DNA of 64,000 bases from positions 1 to 64,000 of the forward strand of contig CANLHK010000002.1 in the NCBI GenBank assembly GCA_947490615.1, in the 5' to 3' direction. Below are positions 27,093 to 37,503 of the stretch, piece after piece. The position numbers and the translations under genes are program-made. Under the pieces are notes generated by a model. The model did not search any database, was not told the DNA's origin, and was given only the letters and a program-made list of their open reading frames with translations. Position 1 is the stretch's first letter. Each line of letters begins with the position of its first letter. This stretch comes from Planctomycetaceae bacterium (GTDB lineage: Bacteria > Planctomycetota > Phycisphaerae > Phycisphaerales > SM1A02).

Positions 27093-28100
27093 TCAGTTCG
27101 AAAGCAGATCCATGCCGAGTCCTTCGGCGCGGATCTTGTCGAGGAGCAAGTTGAACTTCGTGAGCGCCTCTTCGAGCCGCTTGGCCGAATCAGAAAGCCC
27201 TTCATAGAGCGCGGGATCTTGCGCGAGTCGTCCAAGCGTTCCCTTGCCTGTTCGCGCCACGATCATGAGCTGCTCGAGTTCTTGCATGGTCGCCGCTGCA
27301 CGATCGAGCACAGGAATCGCGCTCACGCGCAGGCTTGCTGCGTCGGCCGACAGGGAGTCCGCCAACGCGCCGATGCGGTTGGCCGAGACGGTGGCGTCGC
27401 GCATGAACTCGCTTGCGCCATGGGCGGCATCGCGAATGTCGGTGCGCAGCTGCTCATCGTTCATCCAGGCTTGCGCGCTCTTCAAGGCTACGTCGGCGGA
27501 GGCCAGCATGTCGTTGAGCCGCCGCATCGCCGTCCGCACGCTGTCAGGATTTGGTTCCTGTCCATCGATGGTGGGTTCGACGAGCGTGTTGAGGTTTTTG
27601 GCGAGCTTGGAGAGTTCGCCAAATGTCGCGAGGACCGGACCAAACCGCTCATCGAGTTGGGTCATGACGCTGTCTTCGATGCTCTGCACGCGACCGCGCA
27701 GGAGCGTGTCCCTGTCGTGCGGATAGGTGCGTGGCGGAACCGCCAGCGGAAGCGCCGCGGTCAGCTCGAGACGCGCGCCGCTTCCGAGCAGCGAGGATTG
27801 GACGCTCGCGGTGCACGGTTCTGGAATGCGCACCTTTTCGTTGATCGCGGCCACGACGAGGACGGGCTGCGTCGGATCGTTCCAGAACTCCACCGACTCG
27901 ATCGCGCCGACGGGCACGCCGTTCAGCGTGACCAAACTTCCAGGTCGGAGTCCGCCCGCTTCGTTGAAGGCGACTTTGAGCGGCCAGCGTTGCGCGAGCA
28001 TCGGCTCGATCTCACCAAAGAGAAACAGCAACGATCCGAGCGCGCCGAAGCCGCCGATGGTGCAGACGCCGACCATGATGTTGCGCACACGCTCTCTCAT
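27093..28100 (-). CDS. MCE/MlaD-like lipid transport substrate-binding protein
   Basis: N-term TM then VAFNEAGGLRPGSLVTLNGVPVGAIESVEF (MCE domain); coiled-coil C-terminus. ATG at 28100 has GGAG upstream. Confidence 0.85.
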   Translation of the reverse strand: MRERVRNIMVGVCTIGGFGALGSLLFLFGEIEPMLAQRWPLKVAFNEAGGLRPGSLVTLNGVPVGAIESVEFWNDPTQPVLVVAAINEKVRIPEPCTASVQSSLLGSGARLELTAALPLAVPPRTYPHDRDTLLRGRVQSIEDSVMTQLDERFGPVLATFGELSKLAKNLNTLVEPTIDGQEPNPDSVRTAMRRLNDMLASADVALKSAQAWMNDEQLRTDIRDAAHGASEFMRDATVSANRIGALADSLSADAASLRVSAIPVLDRAAATMQELEQLMIVARTGKGTLGRLAQDPALYEGLSDSAKRLEEALTKFNLLLDKIRAEGLGMDLLSN

Positions 28101-28140
28101 CACAATGCTCCTGCAGACTCGTCGCACACTCGTGGCAAAG

Positions 28141-29031
28141 TCACGGTATCGAACGAGTGCTGCTCAACTCACAACTCTGGTCACCGACTCCGCGAATGGC
28201 GCGGAGCTCTTCTTCACTGGCTTCGCCGCGAAGGAAGCGCTGCACCACTGGGTTGGTGGACTGGCGCATCTCTTCGGGGGTTCCCTCAAGCACGACTTGA
28301 CCTTCGTGCAACATCACCATGTGGTCGGCAACCTTGAAGGCGCTGGCCAGATCGTGGGTCACCACGATACTCGTCACATCGAGCTGCTGCTTGAACTTGA
28401 GAATCAGCTCGTTGATCACATCGGCGCGAATCGGATCGAGACCCGTCGTCGGTTCGTCGTAGAGCACGACCTTGGGACGCAGCACGACCGCGCGGGCAAG
28501 GGCAACACGCTTTTGTTGCCCACCTGAAAGTTCGCTTGGCGACGCGTCGTACATTTGCTCGAGCCCGACGAGTCGCAGCACATAGCGCACGCGCATCTCT
28601 TCGTCGTAGGCAATGCCGCCCTCTTGCTCACGCAAAGGAAAGGCGATGTTCTCTGCGACCGACATCGAGTCGAACAAGGCGCCGTGCTGAAAGAGCACGC
28701 CAAACTGCCGGCGAATCGGAGCAAGCTTGCGTTCCGAGAGATTGTCGATCCGCGCGCCTTCGAAGTAGACGCGGCCTTTGTCGGGTCGGAGGAGGCCGAT
28801 GAGGTGCTTGAGCATGACGCTCTTGCCGCAACCCGACGGGCCGAGGACGACGGTGGTCTTGCCGCGCGGAAAGGCCAGCGTGATGTTGCGCAGGACCCGC
28901 TGTCTGCCGAAACTCTTGACCAGTTCCTCGATGCGAACAGGAGCGTCCACGCGTGCGACAGAAGTCGAAGTCGGATGTGCGCTCTCTCGGTGTTCCTCGG
29001 CGTCGGCCATCCTCGTATGATCGGCACTCAT
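28141..29031 (-). CDS. MlaF-like ABC transporter ATP-binding protein
   Basis: VLGPSGCGKSVMLKHLIGLLRPDKG, LSGGQQKRVALARA, LYDEPTTGLDPIRADVINELI. ATG at 29031 or 29010. Confidence 0.88.
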   Translation of the reverse strand: MSADHTRMADAEEHRESAHPTSTSVARVDAPVRIEELVKSFGRQRVLRNITLAFPRGKTTVVLGPSGCGKSVMLKHLIGLLRPDKGRVYFEGARIDNLSERKLAPIRRQFGVLFQHGALFDSMSVAENIAFPLREQEGGIAYDEEMRVRYVLRLVGLEQMYDASPSELSGGQQKRVALARAVVLRPKVVLYDEPTTGLDPIRADVINELILKFKQQLDVTSIVVTHDLASAFKVADHMVMLHEGQVVLEGTPEEMRQSTNPVVQRFLRGEASEEELRAIRGVGDQSCELSSTRSIP

Positions 29032-29608
29032 GGAGATTCCGCAAGTGGACAATCCGCGCGTGCACACGACCCATGTCGGGCCGGTGTTTTGTGTCGAGCG
29101 GTTGGAGTTTGCCGCGGAGGGCTTGCACGCCGCGCGCGTGAAGGATGTCGTGCGTCATCCTGGTGCCGTGACCGTCATCGCGGTGCGGGACGATGGCATG
29201 CTGGTGCTGGTGAAGAACCGCCGCGTCGCCGTCGGCCAATGGTTGATCGAGTTCTGCGCGGGCAAACTGGAGCGTGGAGAGGATCCCGCTGCCGCTGCCG
29301 CGCGTGAGCTCGAAGAAGAAACCGGATTTCGCGCGGGCAACCTGGTGAAACTAGGCAACTTCTTCACCTCGCCAGGGTTCGCTGACGAGATCATGCATGT
29401 CTTTCTCGCCACCAAGTTGGTCGAGGTCGGTCAACGGCTTGAGCAGGGCGAAGAACTCGAGGTTGTGGTGCTCGAAGAGTCCGAACTGTGCGCACAGATG
29501 GCCGCAGGGGAGATTCTCGACGGAAAGACCTTGGGGGCCTATCTGCTCTGGTCGATGAAGCGTTCGCGTGCAGCGCAGTGTGCAGAAAGCCGAGAGGTTG
29601 CGCGATGA
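29030..29608 (+). CDS. NUDIX hydrolase (ADP-ribose pyrophosphatase-like)
   Basis: Nudix box GKLERGEDPAAAAARELEEETGF. Confidence 0.88.
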   Translation: MEIPQVDNPRVHTTHVGPVFCVERLEFAAEGLHAARVKDVVRHPGAVTVIAVRDDGMLVLVKNRRVAVGQWLIEFCAGKLERGEDPAAAAARELEEETGFRAGNLVKLGNFFTSPGFADEIMHVFLATKLVEVGQRLEQGEELEVVVLEESELCAQMAAGEILDGKTLGAYLLWSMKRSRAAQCAESREVAR

Positions 29609-30732
29609 GCAGTTGGGACGACGCAGACGAACGAGAGCGACCCTCAGGCTTTGGAGGCGACTGGCGCGGTGCGCGTCCGACCTTCGATGACCCGATGTCT
29701 TGGTCGCTTCCAGTGTTTCGCGTGGCGCGGATCACCGTGCGCGTCCATGTGTTCTTCCTCGTCTTTGTCCTCGTGGTGTTGGCCCATGCAGCAAGCGTGA
29801 CGAGCGAGGGCGCGATTGGCGTGCTGCCGACACTCCTTGGACTCGTGGCGCTCTTCTCCGTCATCCTGCTTCACGAGTTCGGCCACTGCATCGCCTGTCG
29901 AGCCAAGGGCGGAACTGCGGACGAGATTTTGCTCTGGCCGCTTGGTGGATTGGCGACCTGCACGCCACCTGATCGTCCGAGCGCGCACTTGTGGACCGCG
30001 ATCGGCGGACCGCTGGTCAATGTCGCGTTCATTTTGGTGCTGACCCCGTACATCGGCCTTGAAACTGGTGTCTGGTGGGGGCGGGCAATTCCCAATCCAC
30101 TCGATCTCGGCGGGATGATCCAGCGCTCTGACTTTGGCGAGGACATTCTCGGTTGGGCCAAGATGTTCGTCTTCTTGACGAACTACATCGCCTGGGTGCT
30201 CTTGCTCTTCAACCTCATTCCAATGTTCCCGCTCGACGGTGGGCGAATTCTCCAGGCGATTCTTTGGAAGCGCATGGGGAAGGCGCGTTCGATGCGCGTG
30301 GCGTGTCGCGCTGGAATCATGGGTGCGGTGGCGATCGGAATTGGCGCACTGATCTCCGAGAGCACGATGCTCTTGGGTATCGCCATCTTTGGCGGATTCG
30401 TCTGCGTCCTGACCGCGCGGCAGGTCGACTTCGAGCGCGACTTCCTCGGATTTGATCCTGACCCTTCCGAATTGGCTGCGATGGAAGAGGACGAACACGA
30501 GGATGTTTCTCCGCCGCACCGCTCGTCGCGTAACGCGCCAACCGCCGCTGCGTCCAAGAGCCATCCAAAGTCATCGAGCAACGCTCAATCCGCCGGCGAA
30601 GCGGAGATCGATCGCATCCTTGCCAAGATCGCGCGCTCAGGCATCGAGAGTTTGAGCGCCTCGGAACGCGGTGCGTTGCAGCGCGCCACCGATGAGAAGC
30701 GCGATCGCGATGGCAAGAGCGGTCGAGCCTGA
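29605..30732 (+). CDS. Site-2 protease family (M50) intramembrane metalloprotease
   Basis: LLHEFGHCIACRA (HExxH), AIGGPLVNVAF, NLIPMFPLDGGRIL. Start ATG overlaps the upstream stop. Confidence 0.88.
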   Translation: MSSWDDADERERPSGFGGDWRGARPTFDDPMSWSLPVFRVARITVRVHVFFLVFVLVVLAHAASVTSEGAIGVLPTLLGLVALFSVILLHEFGHCIACRAKGGTADEILLWPLGGLATCTPPDRPSAHLWTAIGGPLVNVAFILVLTPYIGLETGVWWGRAIPNPLDLGGMIQRSDFGEDILGWAKMFVFLTNYIAWVLLLFNLIPMFPLDGGRILQAILWKRMGKARSMRVACRAGIMGAVAIGIGALISESTMLLGIAIFGGFVCVLTARQVDFERDFLGFDPDPSELAAMEEDEHEDVSPPHRSSRNAPTAAASKSHPKSSSNAQSAGEAEIDRILAKIARSGIESLSASERGALQRATDEKRDRDGKSGRA

Positions 30733-30799
30733 GACGCGGTGCATGCACGGACCGCGCGGTTGAGTTGTCGGCGTGCCAAAGGGCTACACTCCGCGCCCC

Positions 30800-32113
30800 A
30801 TGGGTCTTGCTGATCGCGATTACAACCGAGTACAGAGCGCTGGCGGTGGCCGAGTGAGCACGGGGCGCTTCTTGCTCGGACGCATTCGTTCCGCGTCACC
30901 ACGCGGCGGCTACTCCGCGACCTTCCTCATTGTCGTCGCCTGTTGCTTGGTCTACTTCCTCGACCTCTTGCTGCCCTCGCGTTTTGTGCAGTCAAGCCCG
31001 TGGATCGCGGCTCCTGCGCAGCGTGCCGCCGCCGATGCGATCGCGGCAAAGATCAAGCAGATTGATCAGCTCGCAGCTTCGGCCAAATCGCGCGGCGATA
31101 CGGCCGCCGTTGCGTCGTTGCTCGAGGGGCGCTCGTCACTTGAAGTGCTCTTCGAAGAGCGACAGCAACTGATCGTCGTGGCGGAAGAAGCATGGGAAGC
31201 GCGTCGCAATCGCGGTGAGTTTGTCGCCGTCATCGAGAAGGAACCTGGCGGCGGAGCGATGGCTGTGGCGCGGGAACCTGGAGTGTCGCGTCTTGTCGAT
31301 CCGTTGGCCGTTGCACGTGCAGACTCGGTCGGCCCCATCCGCGCGTGGATGCAATTCACCACGGCGCAGGCGATGTGGGTTCCGCAGAAGTGGGGGGCCG
31401 AACAGGGCTTTCAGTTCTGGCGCTTCCTCGGCTACGGCATCCTCCACATCAACCTCACGCATCTCTTGTTCAACATGCTTGGCTTGTGGGTCTTCGGCCC
31501 GATCGTGGAGCAAGCCTTTGGCCGACTGCGCTTCTTCGCGCTGTTCATGCTGAGCGTCGTCGTCGGCGCACTGCTCTACTTCTTACTCAATGTTGGCGGA
31601 CTGGCGGCCTTGGGCGTGACCGACGGCGAGTTCATCGTGCCTGGACTGCTGTTCAACAACCCGTACTTGCCGCTCATCGGCGCCAGCGCGGGCGTGTACG
31701 GCGTCATTCTCGCTGCAGCGTGGTTGCGTCCCAACGAGGACATCCTCCTTCTCTTCGTCTTTCCCATTCCGCTGCGGTACTTCGCGTTAGCGATCATCGG
31801 CATCAGCGTGTTCACGCTCTTACGCAATGGCAACAACGCTGGTGGTGAGGCCGCGCATCTTGGCGGTGCTCTCGCGGGTTGGTGGATCGCGCAGAGGCCG
31901 CATTTGCTCGATGATTTCTTTCCATTCTTCCATCGCTTTGACGGTCGAAGAGCCGCGCGGCCGACACCGCGGCGCGCGCCCGCTCCGTCGGATTCGGAGA
32001 TCGATCGCATTCTCGACAAGGTCCGCGCGGAAGGGCTCGCGAGTTTGAGCGAGCGCGAGCGCACCGCCCTGCGCAACGCCACCGATGAACACAGGAAGCG
32101 CGATGGCCGGTAG
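30800..32113 (+). CDS. Rhomboid-family intramembrane serine protease
   Basis: FLGYGILHINLTHLLFNMLGLWVFGPIVE, LIGASAGVYGVI (Ser), EAAHLGGALAGW (His). Confidence 0.88.
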   Translation: MGLADRDYNRVQSAGGGRVSTGRFLLGRIRSASPRGGYSATFLIVVACCLVYFLDLLLPSRFVQSSPWIAAPAQRAAADAIAAKIKQIDQLAASAKSRGDTAAVASLLEGRSSLEVLFEERQQLIVVAEEAWEARRNRGEFVAVIEKEPGGGAMAVAREPGVSRLVDPLAVARADSVGPIRAWMQFTTAQAMWVPQKWGAEQGFQFWRFLGYGILHINLTHLLFNMLGLWVFGPIVEQAFGRLRFFALFMLSVVVGALLYFLLNVGGLAALGVTDGEFIVPGLLFNNPYLPLIGASAGVYGVILAAAWLRPNEDILLLFVFPIPLRYFALAIIGISVFTLLRNGNNAGGEAAHLGGALAGWWIAQRPHLLDDFFPFFHRFDGRRAARPTPRRAPAPSDSEIDRILDKVRAEGLASLSERERTALRNATDEHRKRDGR

Positions 32114-33320
32114 CACGGGCCGCCACGCGGTGCGCTTTGAATTGCGCCAACAGTCGAAGTCCACGGCCGCGCGACTTGGACGCGTGACCACCAAGCACGG
32201 ATCGTTCGACACGCCCGCGTTTATGCCCGTGGCGACGGCCGCGACCATGAAAGGTCTGACGCCCGACCAGATCACTTCGACGGGCGCACAGATCATTCTC
32301 AACAACGCGTATCACCTGATGCTGCGACCAGGCGCTGAGCGCATCGCGCACTTTGGCGGCAGTCACGCCTTCATGCGTTGGGACAAGCCGATCCTCACCG
32401 ACAGCGGCGGCTTTCAAGCGTGGTCGATGTCGGAGGGAACCAAGATCAGCGAAGAAGGCGTGGAGTTTCGCTCCTTCGTGGATGGGTCGAAGGTGCTGCT
32501 CTCACCAGAGCGTTCGATCGCGGTGCAGAACGCCATCGGCTCCGACATCATGATGGCGTTTGATGATTGCCCGCCAGCGCTCAAGCCGACCACGCCTGTC
32601 GAGGATCCGCAACTCTCGCGCAAGCGTCGAAGCGATCCAGCGGAACACCAGAAGCGACTTGAAGCGGCCATCGATCGGACCGCGCGTTGGTTGGAGCGGT
32701 GTGTTGCTGCGCATGCTCGAGGTGATGAACAGGGGCTCTTCGGCATCGTGCAAGGCGGCACGGATCTCACGCTGCGTCAGAGGTCGGTCGAACAGATTTG
32801 CGCCTTTGACCTCCCCGGATTTGCCATCGGCGGGGTCGCCGTCGGCGAGTCGCCCGATGAGATCCACCGCACTGTGGCCGCAGTCGCCCCCATGCTTCCG
32901 TCGGACCGCCCGCGCTACCTCATGGGTGTCGGCTATGAGCGCGACATCGTGGCGGCGGTGAAAGCGGGGGTGGACATGTTTGACTGTGTCCTGCCTACGC
33001 GAAACGGCCGAAAAGGCTACGCCTTTACGCCAACGGGCGCGGTGCGCATCCGCAACGCCTGCCACACCCTCGACCCCACGCCCGTTGATCCAACCTGCGA
33101 TTGCCTGGCCTGCGCGGGCGGCTTTTCCCGCGGATACATCCGCCACCTCTTCATGGCCGACGAGATGCTCGGACCGACCCTTCTGAGCATCCATAACCTC
33201 CGCCACTTCCAGAGGCTGATGGTGGACATTCGGGCCGTGATCGGTGATGATCGGTGGTTCGACCTTGAGTCCCGCTGGCCCGTGCTTGGCACACCCGCGA
33301 CGGCTGAGGTTGATCCGTGA
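32103..33320 (+). CDS. tgt: Queuine tRNA-ribosyltransferase
   Basis: GSFDTPAFMPVATAATMKGLTPDQI, TDSGGFQAWSM, DDCPP, FGIVQGG, GVDMFDCVLPTRNGRKG, CDCLAC. Confidence 0.95.
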   Translation: MAGSTGRHAVRFELRQQSKSTAARLGRVTTKHGSFDTPAFMPVATAATMKGLTPDQITSTGAQIILNNAYHLMLRPGAERIAHFGGSHAFMRWDKPILTDSGGFQAWSMSEGTKISEEGVEFRSFVDGSKVLLSPERSIAVQNAIGSDIMMAFDDCPPALKPTTPVEDPQLSRKRRSDPAEHQKRLEAAIDRTARWLERCVAAHARGDEQGLFGIVQGGTDLTLRQRSVEQICAFDLPGFAIGGVAVGESPDEIHRTVAAVAPMLPSDRPRYLMGVGYERDIVAAVKAGVDMFDCVLPTRNGRKGYAFTPTGAVRIRNACHTLDPTPVDPTCDCLACAGGFSRGYIRHLFMADEMLGPTLLSIHNLRHFQRLMVDIRAVIGDDRWFDLESRWPVLGTPATAEVDP

Positions 33321-33432
33321 GCGGGCGTACCTCGCGCGGATTTTTTTGCCCCCCGTTCGGCCCAACCATTGGCCGAACCAGTTGCTATGCCACCGACGCG
33401 AGCTGTTCGCGTCGCCGAAAGGACCTCTCGCT

Positions 33433-33852
33433 GTGCTTGAACTCCTGATCGCGCAAACCGACGGCCCCGCCCTTGCTGGGCAGCCCGTCGTCACCGCTTC
33501 TCCTACCGCCACGGGAACCTCCGAGGCGGCAGGCACTCCAGTCACGCCAGCGGCTCCAGCGCGGGCAGGCGGCTTCGACTTCGTGACCCTCGCTCTCTTT
33601 GGCGTCGTGATCGCGCTGATCATCTCGAGCGTGCTCGGTGGTCGACGCGAGAAGAAGAAGTTCGCGGAGATGATGTCCTCGATGAAGCGCAACGACCAGG
33701 TTCGCACTGTGGGCGGCATCATCGGGAGCGTCGTTGAGGTCAAGCCTGATGTGGTGGTCCTGAAGATCGACGAAAACTCGAACACCAAGATCACCGTCGT
33801 CCGCAGCAAGATCGAAGCGGTCATCAAAGAATCAACGACAGGCACCGCCTGA
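33433..33852 (+). CDS. yajC: Preprotein translocase subunit YajC
   Basis: Single TM then RREKKKFAEMMSSMKRNDQVRTVGGIIGSVVEVKPDVVVLKIDENSNTKITVVRSKIEAV; immediately upstream of secDF. GTG start. Confidence 0.9.
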   Translation: MLELLIAQTDGPALAGQPVVTASPTATGTSEAAGTPVTPAAPARAGGFDFVTLALFGVVIALIISSVLGGRREKKKFAEMMSSMKRNDQVRTVGGIIGSVVEVKPDVVVLKIDENSNTKITVVRSKIEAVIKESTTGTA

Positions 33853-33981
33853 GTCCTCGTCCGAGGCGCCACGGCTGACGATGGCGCGGACATCAAGGAG
33901 CGCCGCTGCGTGTGCAGTGGGCGCTCATCGTGACGGAGCGCCGTCACGGATGACAGCTCGTGAGAGAAATTGGAACAGAAC

Positions 33982-36900
33982 ATGAAGAACGCCTGGATGA
34001 AGCTCGCTCTCGTCGCCGCACTCTGCGCCATCTGCGCTTGGGAACTCGGCGTGAAGGGCATCCGACTCGGTAAGGACCTCCAGGGCGGCGTGAGCCTGGT
34101 CTACTCGGTGAAGATCCCCGCGGGCCAGCAGTCCGAGACGGTGCTCGGGCAGGTCATTGATGTGCTCAAGCAGCGCGTCAATCCGCAGGGCGTGCTCGAC
34201 ATCGGCATGCAGCCGCAGGGCGCGGACCGCATCGAAGTCGTCATGCCGCTTCCATCGGCCGAAGTGCGTGCGCTGCAACTTGAGGCCAAGGCGCGCATCG
34301 AAGAGTTCCTCGCCAAGACGCAGATCGCTGCGAGTGAGCTCGATGCGGCTCTCGCCACAGGCACCGCGGCTTCGCGGTTTGCCAAGCAAAATCCAGCTGT
34401 TGCCGAACTCGAAGGCGCGTGGCAGAACATGCAGCAAGTGCGAGCAGACCTTGCTGCGCTTCAGTCCAGCGGTGCTGCGAGCGATCAGCTCGGACCTGCT
34501 GAGGACAAGGTTGTCGCAGGCGAACTGCGCTACGAGAATCTCCGCGGTCAAGTCCTCGCGCGCACGCTTGCGCCAGCTCGTTTGACGAAGGCTCTTGAGC
34601 TCTCCCTCAAGCCACAACCGCTGCGCGATGCCGACGGCAAGATCGTGATGAACGCCAGCGGCGATGCGGAGATGGGACCGAGTCCGCGCGAGAAGGAGAT
34701 GGCTGCGATCAAGAGCGAGTTCGCCACGCTGTCGGCCGAACTCGATGAGCTCGCTGCGACCAATGACCGCTACATCGCTCGGCGCACGGGTCTCGATGAT
34801 CCGCAAGATCTCATTCGCCTCATGCGTGGCGCGGGTGTCCTTGACTTCCGAATCGCTGTCGATCCCAACAAGCCGCAAGGCGTGAATCCTGTCGAGATCC
34901 GCAAGGACCTCGTCGCCAAGGGACCCCGCGCTGGTGAGCCAGGCATCGCTCGCTGGTTCCCACTGAACGATCTCAAGCAGTGGTACGACAAGCCCGCCGA
35001 ACTCGAAGCGCTCAAGGCCGCGCCCGTCGAGTATTTCGCAGCGCGCAATCTCACGGTGGGTGAGTTTGCTGGCGAGCTCTACCTCCTCCTGTACGACTCC
35101 GATGCCAAGAGTCTCACGCACCGTGGTGGCGCGAGTTGGGGACTCACCAATGCCTACCGCACCACCGATCAGCGCCTCGGCGCTGCAGCGGTTGGATTTC
35201 AGCTTGATCAGAACGGCGGGCAGCGCATGGCGCAGCTCACGGGCACCCATGTCGGCGAGCCGATGGCGATCGTGCTCGATGACGAGGTCTACAGCGCACC
35301 GCGCCTGAACAGCACCATCTCGGATTCCGGTGTGATCACGGGCCAGTTCGGTGAGGAAGAACTCTCCTACCTCATCCGCGTGCTCACCGCAGGCAGCCTC
35401 GAAGCGAAGATCTCGAGCGATCCGATCTCGGTGAACATCCTCGGCCCCTCGATCGGCGCCGACAACCTTGAGAAGGGTCTGCAAGCCACGATCATCTCGG
35501 TCTCGATCACCTGCGTGGTGATGCTCCTCTACTACTTCCTCGCTGGACTCATCGTCGACATCGCTCTGGCGATCAACACGCTGATGATCTTCGGCATCAT
35601 GGCGCTCATCGACGGGACCTTCACCCTGCCTGGTCTGGCGGGCGTGGCGCTGTCAGTCGCGATGGCCGTCGACGCCAATGTGCTCATTTACGAGCGCATT
35701 CGCGAAGAACTCGAACTCGGCAATCCGCTGAAGGCCTCGATTGACATCGCCTACAAGCGTGCACTCAGCGCCATCATCGACGGCAACGTCACCAACTTGA
35801 TCGCCTGCGTGGTGCTCTACAAGGTCGGCGCGACGGAAGTGAAGGGCTTTGCGCTCACCATGTCCATCGGCGTCATCACCACGCTCTTCACGGGACTTTG
35901 GGTCTCGCGCGCGATGTTTGATGTCGCACTCGCTGGCGGCATGAAGCGGCTGCCCATGTTGCCGACGGTCGTTCCATCGATCTCGCGCTTCCTGCTACCC
36001 AATGTCGATTGGATCAAGTTGCGTCCAGCGCTCTTTGGGTTCAGCATCGCCTTGGCCGTGCTCTCAACGGGCGCCTTCGTGATGCGCGGCAACGACATGT
36101 ACGAGACCGAGTTCCGCGGCGGAAACTCGATGACGCTGTCGACGCGCATGGCTCGTGGTGGCGAACCCCTAGCCCAAGACGGTCGCCTGGGAATCACCCG
36201 CGCAGAGATGGAGACGATGGTCCGTGCGATCGGCGCGGCTGCGGGCGACGACATCGTGGTCGCGCAGTTGCGCAGTGCGAATGTCCTGACCGTTGGTGAG
36301 AGCACCAGCGACGGACTCGCGTCGAAGTTCCAAGTGCGCGTCGGCAATCCCTCGGAGATCCCTGAGGGCTTCGATGAGACTCGTATCTCCCGCGACATCG
36401 TGAGCGCCGTCTCGACTGGGCTCGCGGGACAGTTGGATGTCCGTCTGCCCCTCGTGTTTGCGAACTCGACTTCCGAAGATCACACCGCAGTCACCAAGCC
36501 ACTCGAGAAGGCTCTGATCGGAAGTTCGATCGGTCGTCCGCAGACCTCGTCGGATGCCGTAGCGGAGTTCCGCGGCGGCGTGGCGGTGCTGGTCGATGGG
36601 TTGGAAACCCCTGTCACAGCGACGGATGTGGCCGCGCGCATCACCCGCATGCGTTCGCAGCCCGACTGGTCGTCGACCGCTGGGCGCAAGACCCGGGTGG
36701 TTGGCATTGACCCCGTTGATCCAAGCAATCCAGGCGGTCTCCATCGGGGCTTTGCCGTCCTGGTTTCGGACGCCGACATCAACAGCTTTGATGTTGAACT
36801 CGAAGTGTGGGATCGCGACCTGGCCAGAATCGAGTGGAGCTTGGTGCGCGACGCGCTGACTCAGCAGGCGAGCCTCGACCAAGTGTCGAGCTTCTCTCCC

Positions 36901-37503
36901 GTGGTCGCAGAGAATCTCGCCGCGACCGCGGTGGTCGCCGTCATCCTCAGCCTCATCGGCATGCTCGCCTACATCTGGGTGCGGTTCGGAAGTTTCCGCT
37001 TCTCAACGGCGACGGTGTTGGGCGTCACCTTCAATGTGATCGTCTGCCTTGGCTTCCTCGCGATCTCGATTCCGCTCGCTTCGTCAGGCATCGGACCTGC
37101 GCTCTACCTCGAGGAATACCGCATCGACCTCAATGTCGTGGCGGGTCTTCTTACCATCATCGGTTACTCGCTCAACGACACCGTGGTCATCCTCGACCGC
37201 ATCCGCGAGAACCGCGGCAAGCGAACATGGATCAGCCGCGAGACGGTGAACCTCTCGATCAACCAAACCTTCAGCCGAACCATCCTCACTGGTGGAAGCA
37301 CCTTCGCGACAGCGATCGTGTTGATCGTGCTCGGTGGTACGGGCATTCGACCGTTCGCCTACACCTTCCTCATCGGACTCATCGCAGGCACTTTTAGTTC
37401 GGTGGCAATCGCAGCGCCGCTCGTGTATAGTCGCCGCGAAGAAGAGGAAGAACGAGCGAAGGCCGCCATCGTGCCTGTCAGTGCATCGCTTCAACCTGCT
37501 TGA
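33982..37503 (+). CDS. secDF: Fused SecDF protein translocase subunit
   Basis: SecD half (GKDLQGGVSLVYSV, VAMAVDANVLIYERIREE) and SecF half (FRGGNSM, SLNDTVVILDRIRENRGK) in one ORF. Confidence 0.95.
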   Translation: MKNAWMKLALVAALCAICAWELGVKGIRLGKDLQGGVSLVYSVKIPAGQQSETVLGQVIDVLKQRVNPQGVLDIGMQPQGADRIEVVMPLPSAEVRALQLEAKARIEEFLAKTQIAASELDAALATGTAASRFAKQNPAVAELEGAWQNMQQVRADLAALQSSGAASDQLGPAEDKVVAGELRYENLRGQVLARTLAPARLTKALELSLKPQPLRDADGKIVMNASGDAEMGPSPREKEMAAIKSEFATLSAELDELAATNDRYIARRTGLDDPQDLIRLMRGAGVLDFRIAVDPNKPQGVNPVEIRKDLVAKGPRAGEPGIARWFPLNDLKQWYDKPAELEALKAAPVEYFAARNLTVGEFAGELYLLLYDSDAKSLTHRGGASWGLTNAYRTTDQRLGAAAVGFQLDQNGGQRMAQLTGTHVGEPMAIVLDDEVYSAPRLNSTISDSGVITGQFGEEELSYLIRVLTAGSLEAKISSDPISVNILGPSIGADNLEKGLQATIISVSITCVVMLLYYFLAGLIVDIALAINTLMIFGIMALIDGTFTLPGLAGVALSVAMAVDANVLIYERIREELELGNPLKASIDIAYKRALSAIIDGNVTNLIACVVLYKVGATEVKGFALTMSIGVITTLFTGLWVSRAMFDVALAGGMKRLPMLPTVVPSISRFLLPNVDWIKLRPALFGFSIALAVLSTGAFVMRGNDMYETEFRGGNSMTLSTRMARGGEPLAQDGRLGITRAEMETMVRAIGAAAGDDIVVAQLRSANVLTVGESTSDGLASKFQVRVGNPSEIPEGFDETRISRDIVSAVSTGLAGQLDVRLPLVFANSTSEDHTAVTKPLEKALIGSSIGRPQTSSDAVAEFRGGVAVLVDGLETPVTATDVAARITRMRSQPDWSSTAGRKTRVVGIDPVDPSNPGGLHRGFAVLVSDADINSFDVELEVWDRDLARIEWSLVRDALTQQASLDQVSSFSPVVAENLAATAVVAVILSLIGMLAYIWVRFGSFRFSTATVLGVTFNVIVCLGFLAISIPLASSGIGPALYLEEYRIDLNVVAGLLTIIGYSLNDTVVILDRIRENRGKRTWISRETVNLSINQTFSRTILTGGSTFATAIVLIVLGGTGIRPFAYTFLIGLIAGTFSSVAIAAPLVYSRREEEEERAKAAIVPVSASLQPA

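Follow-up and report, generated by a model that had tools for sequence, protein, structure and literature searches.

What could put one and the same short tail on two proteases whose membrane domains are unrelated? In a Planctomycetaceae bacterium, which by its relatives belongs with the Phycisphaerae group of Planctomycetota, an M50 site-2 protease (S2P) and a rhomboid serine protease are encoded side by side in the gene order NUDIX, S2P, rhomboid, tgt, yajC, secDF (Table 1; the window is the whole stretch of 64,000 nucleotides that was analysed). Both C-termini are exactly as quoted in an earlier reading made from the letters of the DNA (the sequence-only reading), to which the shared ending looked like an exchanged adaptor or regulatory module and which likened it to DUF6576. 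Both tails do match Pfam PF20216 (DUF6576), scoring 33.1 and 29.7 bits against a curated cut-off of 27.3 bits, and they are the only DUF6576 matches genome-wide (1.6e-8 and 2.3e-7), the same genome's other rhomboid and other M50 proteins having none. The explanation favoured here, with a probability of about 0.55, is that the termini of these proteases act in the cytosol as a handle by which they dock on one common partner, and that the catalytic core is exchangeable.

Table 1. Features of the NUDIX-S2P-rhomboid locus and the genes that follow it, in window coordinates
Feature	Position	Strand	Evidence
NUDIX hydrolase gene	29030..29608	+	Pfam NUDIX 7e-19
M50 site-2 protease (S2P), 375 aa	29605..30732	+	Pfam Peptidase_M50 1.8e-18
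S2P zinc-site motif HEFGH	29872..29886	+	H90, E91 and H94 invariant, 19 orthologues
S2P linker, low confidence	30466..30573	+	Residues 281-330 mostly at pLDDT about 41-59
S2P DUF6576 tail	30574..30720	+	PF20216 6.2e-8; tail-profile match at 30598-30708
Rhomboid serine protease, 437 aa	30800..32113	+	Pfam Rhomboid 3.7e-24
Rhomboid N-terminal motif MGLADRDY	30800..30823	+	Sole own-genome match to ATG-N9-GAYCGNGAYTAY
Rhomboid catalytic Ser (GASAG, S296)	31685..31687	+	Invariant, 14 orthologues
Rhomboid partner His 353	31856-31858	+	Invariant, 14 orthologues
Rhomboid DUF6576 tail	31991..32104	+	PF20216 7.4e-7; tail-profile match at 31994-32101
tgt, queuine tRNA-ribosyltransferase	32103..33320	+	Pfam TGT 4.4e-140; conserved next gene
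yajC	33244..33852	+	Pfam YajC 1.2e-14; conserved synteny
secD-secF fusion frame	33970..37503	+	ORF; order conserved in relatives

The S2P is likely to start at the ATG at 29605, which overlaps the NUDIX stop (ATGA), and so begins upstream of the interval 30600-32113 that the sequence-only reading had considered. It has the HExxH of M50 S2Ps and their N, P and D residues in a later transmembrane segment: among the 19 orthologues N203, P206, P209 and D211 are invariant or nearly so, N203 and D211 being invariant. The closest solved folds of its core are MjS2P (3b4r, TM 0.81 by target) and SpoIVFB (8vjm). For the rhomboid the ATG at 30800 is the likely start, backed by a conserved N-terminal motif, and its end is likely to be overlapped by the ATG of tgt. 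Here G294, A295 and G298 are as invariant among the 14 orthologues as the Ser-His dyad (S296, H353) and H221 and N225, the HxxxN of the second transmembrane helix, by which rhomboids are recognized; the closest solved fold of the core is GlpG. Because active-site residues are invariant among orthologues, both window proteases are presumably active. A large insertion (window 31013-31330, residues 72-177) separates the first transmembrane helix of the rhomboid from its core; it is modelled as two long helices with some strands and is absent in most shorter orthologues.

In AlphaFold models made from 19 S2P and 14 rhomboid sequences the tail of both proteins is a helical hairpin that follows a low-confidence linker (pLDDT about 40-60). 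Its two helices span residues 324-345 and 352-372 of the S2P (pLDDT about 85-92) and residues 398-411 and 418-435 of the rhomboid (mostly about 81-89). The linker of the S2P is unalignable between orthologues and, going by the model, presumably disordered. Within the tail D5, L8, K10, G15, S18, L19, E23 and L27 are common to the two types of protease. The C-termini of GlpG-type rhomboids and of S2Ps are cytosolic by family topology, and by that analogy both tails should face the cytosol. There is no solved structure of the tail, the best PDB match (E = 0.36) being to a brief segment of an unrelated chain and taken as chance, and phages gave no significant tail match. The further suggestion of the sequence-only reading, that the tail is SHOCT-like, has to be dropped as regards kinship: neither window protein has a Pfam SHOCT match (PF09851) at E <= 0.1, and an hhalign probability of 3.6% amounts to no detectable homology. 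DUF6576 has no described function, and a literature search found no paper on the family.

DUF6576 is present in 118 of 120 Phycisphaerae genomes and in 188 of 195 from Planctomycetota. Among relatives gathered by S2P sequence, whose core identity goes as low as 31%, nearly all S2Ps and neighbouring rhomboids have it. Its absence from S2P orthologues in related genomes, which would have told against the sequence-only reading, is thus not what is seen. The other adverse possibility raised by that reading was local gene conversion. Tails of S2Ps and rhomboids are 47% identical within genomes and 44% between them, against 49% within either type; permutation within clades gives 46% (p = 0.04), and the covariation within genomes is weak. 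Because identity within genomes barely exceeds that between them, recent gene conversion is excluded as the general cause, and the tails are conserved phylum-wide. Outside Planctomycetota the rhomboid carriers came from plasmid records of Bacteroidota and Gemmatimonadota: one from Bacteroides matches Pfam DUF6576, and one from Gemmatirosa has the motif. In Bacteroides finegoldii (L204:1536-3096) two rhomboid genes overlap, with the tail on the second only. Three records (L003, L006, L007) that bear the names Candidatus Kuenenia stuttgartiensis and Limnohabitans hold the Phycisphaerae locus with S2P identity of 62-75%, and probably either their titles are wrong or the bins are contaminated.

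A first count came from comparing the DUF6576 positions in the 120 Phycisphaerae genomes with the hits of a search for the S2P core. It gave 55 genomes with the tail on an S2P and 88 with it on another protein (rhomboid), 25 with both, 30 with S2P only, 63 with rhomboid only and two with neither. A more sensitive tail profile added a rhomboid tail in one genome (G039) and an S2P tail in another (G111), and the count refined by hand is about 27 both, 29 S2P only, 62 rhomboid only and two neither. The two kinds of tail are strongly negatively associated (Fisher p 3e-10, for 120 genomes that are non-independent and with no phylogenetic correction), and tailed S2Ps and tailed rhomboids occur unlinked as well. 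The tail thus does not need both proteases, which lie side by side in some orders only.

These counts bear on the possibility that the hairpins pair with one another, the S2P and rhomboid of the operon forming a single complex whose members cut a substrate one after the other. The genes are adjacent, NUDIX and S2P overlap translationally, a tailed S2P next to a tailed rhomboid is met repeatedly within the order and in both gene orders, and a lone 30-residue hairpin would presumably need a packing surface. Since most genomes tail only one protease type, such a hetero-complex is not the general purpose of the tail, and the analogous short hairpin of SHOCT did not oligomerise (PMC3581485); on balance tail-to-tail pairing is unlikely. 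The sequence-only reading proposed a common partner or coordinated regulation for the neighbours. A common partner is part of the explanation favoured here; coordination of adjacent proteases is not required by the data, as about 91 of the 120 genomes tail one type only and unlinked copies exist.

Many tailed S2Ps and tailed rhomboids also have an N-terminal motif in common, M[GS]WxDRxY. Searched for as a DNA pattern in the 120 genomes, it has 31 matches, and 29 of them start a tailed intramembrane protease (15 S2Ps, 13 rhomboids and one rhomboid-like protein, a pseudo-rhomboid). Of the other two, one starts a small, acidic membrane protein with a zinc ribbon and one a 41-residue frame. The looser MxxxDRDY has 22 matches in 61 genomes, among them 14 tailed proteases and two untailed rhomboids. 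The motif is not obligatory, for it is degenerate in many S2Ps, that of the window included (MSSWDDADER). The zinc-ribbon protein (L190:1500, reverse strand, 132 aa) starts MGWQDRDYHRKR, continues with a CPNC...CPKC ribbon and has one C-terminal transmembrane helix. It is the sole clear non-protease with the strict motif and is possibly a partner or a co-recruited protein. Another small membrane protein (L189, 143 aa) starts MFWKDRDY, which resembles the start of the tailed proteases.

Well over 100 carrier loci were sorted by profiles of both protease cores, and all fetched Planctomycetota carriers are M50 S2Ps, rhomboids or rhomboid-like proteins, besides fragments at contig or locus ends. 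Some 40 further M50 proteins in the 120 genomes are untailed, as are the other rhomboids there. Four of the rhomboid-like proteins (L060, L066, L098, L106) have no G-x-S-[GA] serine motif, yet match both Pfam Rhomboid and DUF6576; a fifth without the serine motif (L103) is 0.7 bits below the DUF6576 cut-off. In these five and in L105 the serine motif is gone and the tail kept, with the N-terminal motif in most, and from their sequences they are possible bacterial rhomboid pseudoproteases. An intramolecular role, in which the tail folds back onto the protease that bears it and controls access, as CBS domains may do in other S2Ps, would suit the flexible linker and the position of the tail, which sits where MjS2P and SpoIVFB carry C-terminal CBS domains. 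It is improbable in view of the tail's retention on proteins without the catalytic serine motif and of the same conserved residues (the eight listed above) on two unrelated cores. A hairpin that is on a floppy linker, on unrelated cores and putative pseudoproteases, and absent from sister proteases looks like a docking handle.

A core has also been exchanged in place. Two congeneric single-contig genomes, G033 and G002, which make up the sample of their genus and have one DUF6576 each, align over 15-kb neighbourhoods at 82-88% DNA identity, and behind the same NUDIX gene there is an S2P in G033 and a rhomboid in G002. As far as the end of ATGAGCTGGGAGCATCGGGA (MSWEHR plus two further bases, to codon 7) the identity is about 90-100%, inside the core it drops to 20-50%, and it is 83-93% again from GGCATCGCTTCA, right before the tail; the tails themselves, QEEVDRILEKVHQNGIQSLTEREKKTLADATHKQQAAGRR and QVEVDRILEKVHQNGIQSLTEREKKTLADATHKQQATGRR, are identical at 38 of 40 residues. 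A search of G033 for relatives of the G002 rhomboid came back empty at E <= 1e-5. The idea of a tail exchanged as a module is borne out by this one genome pair, a clean and recent case, and a core swapped with both end-pieces kept suggests that the two ends serve as a shared handle for docking, with an exchangeable protease between them. In the same family the locus of NUDIX and tailed protease is present in all seven sampled genomes, with an S2P in three and a rhomboid in four. Of 98 NUDIX genes that adjoin tailed proteases, 38 have a rhomboid as neighbour, 31 an S2P and 29 two proteases. On the NUDIX tree, which is poorly resolved (142 columns) and assumes NUDIX orthology, switches between S2P and rhomboid would number at least 11.

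The simplest route for the exchange would be recombination in a tandem pair by way of the repeated N-terminal motif or tail, a route compatible with functional equivalence of the two proteases and no proof of it. The same route could have a plainer meaning: an ancestral tandem pair recombined and one gene was deleted, the shared ends being recombination sites only and the two proteases, with no functional equivalence, differing in their job. Tandem pairs adjacent to NUDIX exist in both orders and the breakpoints are exactly in the N-terminal motif and at the tail, so this may well be how the exchange took place. As the whole explanation it is very improbable, since it leaves unexplained the phylum-wide conservation of both motifs on unlinked copies, the presence of at least one tailed protease in 118 of 120 genomes and the negative association of the two types.

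Relatives keep the order NUDIX-S2P-rhomboid-TGT-YajC-SecDF. Upstream of NUDIX, divergent genes for an MlaF-like ABC ATPase and an MlaD-like protein (27093-29067, minus strand) are conserved in many relatives. At one NUDIX-tgt locus (L085:3126-5009) two adjacent rhomboids are both tailed where relatives have S2P and rhomboid, and in another record (L094:1513-2385) an untailed rhomboid adjoins the tailed S2P at the same locus. That tail and N-terminal motif are signals for assembly, insertion or stability of membrane proteases with no regulatory partner, as the nearby yajC-secDF in Phycisphaerales and the N-terminal motif of the small zinc-ribbon membrane protein might hint, deserves little credence, given that other membrane proteins manage without the tail, among them M50s and rhomboids encoded in the same genomes, and that many other loci have no yajC-secDF linkage. 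NUDIX is the conserved upstream neighbour of tailed intramembrane proteases in Phycisphaerae, beside a tailed S2P or rhomboid in many loci. Fetched loci from outside the class and several rhomboid-only lineages have no NUDIX beside the tailed proteases, and as a general partner of the tail it was rejected; it is a candidate only in Phycisphaerae.

The docking handle may be pictured as follows. DUF6576 would be a small helical-hairpin docking module that a flexible linker ties to the protease at its cytosolic end. Together with M[GS]WxDRxY it would bring every protease so equipped, of whatever type, to one and the same cytosolic partner or task. The core between the two pieces would be interchangeable, be it an M50 metalloprotease, a rhomboid serine protease or a rhomboid pseudoprotease. 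By analogy with the rhomboid YqgP, tailed proteases may hand membrane substrates to the common partner, or be positioned by it, and the best guess from that analogy is a degradation or quality-control factor. More tentatively, and on somewhat less than even odds, the handle sets the cellular role and evolution repeatedly refills the core at the same locus, with metallo-, serine or pseudoprotease, because the role depends more on handle and partner than on chemistry. We know of no identified cytosolic partners or substrates for most bacterial rhomboids and small S2Ps, and a shared handle offers one bait for two enzyme families. The pair G033 and G002 is a natural experiment, with a different protease at the same locus. 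If the cores are interchangeable, role is set by recruitment and not by catalytic type, which bears on the origin of rhomboid pseudoproteases.

Among known systems, the small M50 S2Ps MjS2P and SpoIVFB resemble the window S2P in core fold and catalytic motifs; where they have CBS domains it has the DUF6576 hairpin. Rhombosortase and GlyGly-CTERM likewise pair a rhomboid with a short terminal motif, which there is on the substrates and here on the proteases. SHOCT, too, is a helical hairpin that is short and C-terminal, turns at a glycine and has [ST]xxE as a helix cap; it occurs in 63 architectures (PMC3581485), whereas DUF6576 was seen here on no proteins other than intramembrane proteases and relatives of these. 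A functional likeness is offered by the rhomboid YqgP of B. subtilis, which through a cytosolic N-terminal domain presents substrate to FtsH, a task for which its own catalysis is not needed (PMC7231995); it works for a partner protease in a partly catalysis-independent way. YqgP differs in that its domain is large, N-terminal and metal-binding, with no such tail and no S2P counterpart described; the window rhomboid lacks a domain of that kind, having only about 40 residues, mostly of low confidence, before the first helix of its model. As to PF20216 itself, to which the window tails and the Bacteroides rhomboid belong by Pfam match and the Gemmatirosa rhomboid by motif, three things are new relative to the family as catalogued and, as far as was searched, undescribed: its presence on S2Ps, its pairing with an N-terminal motif, and the exchange of the core in place.
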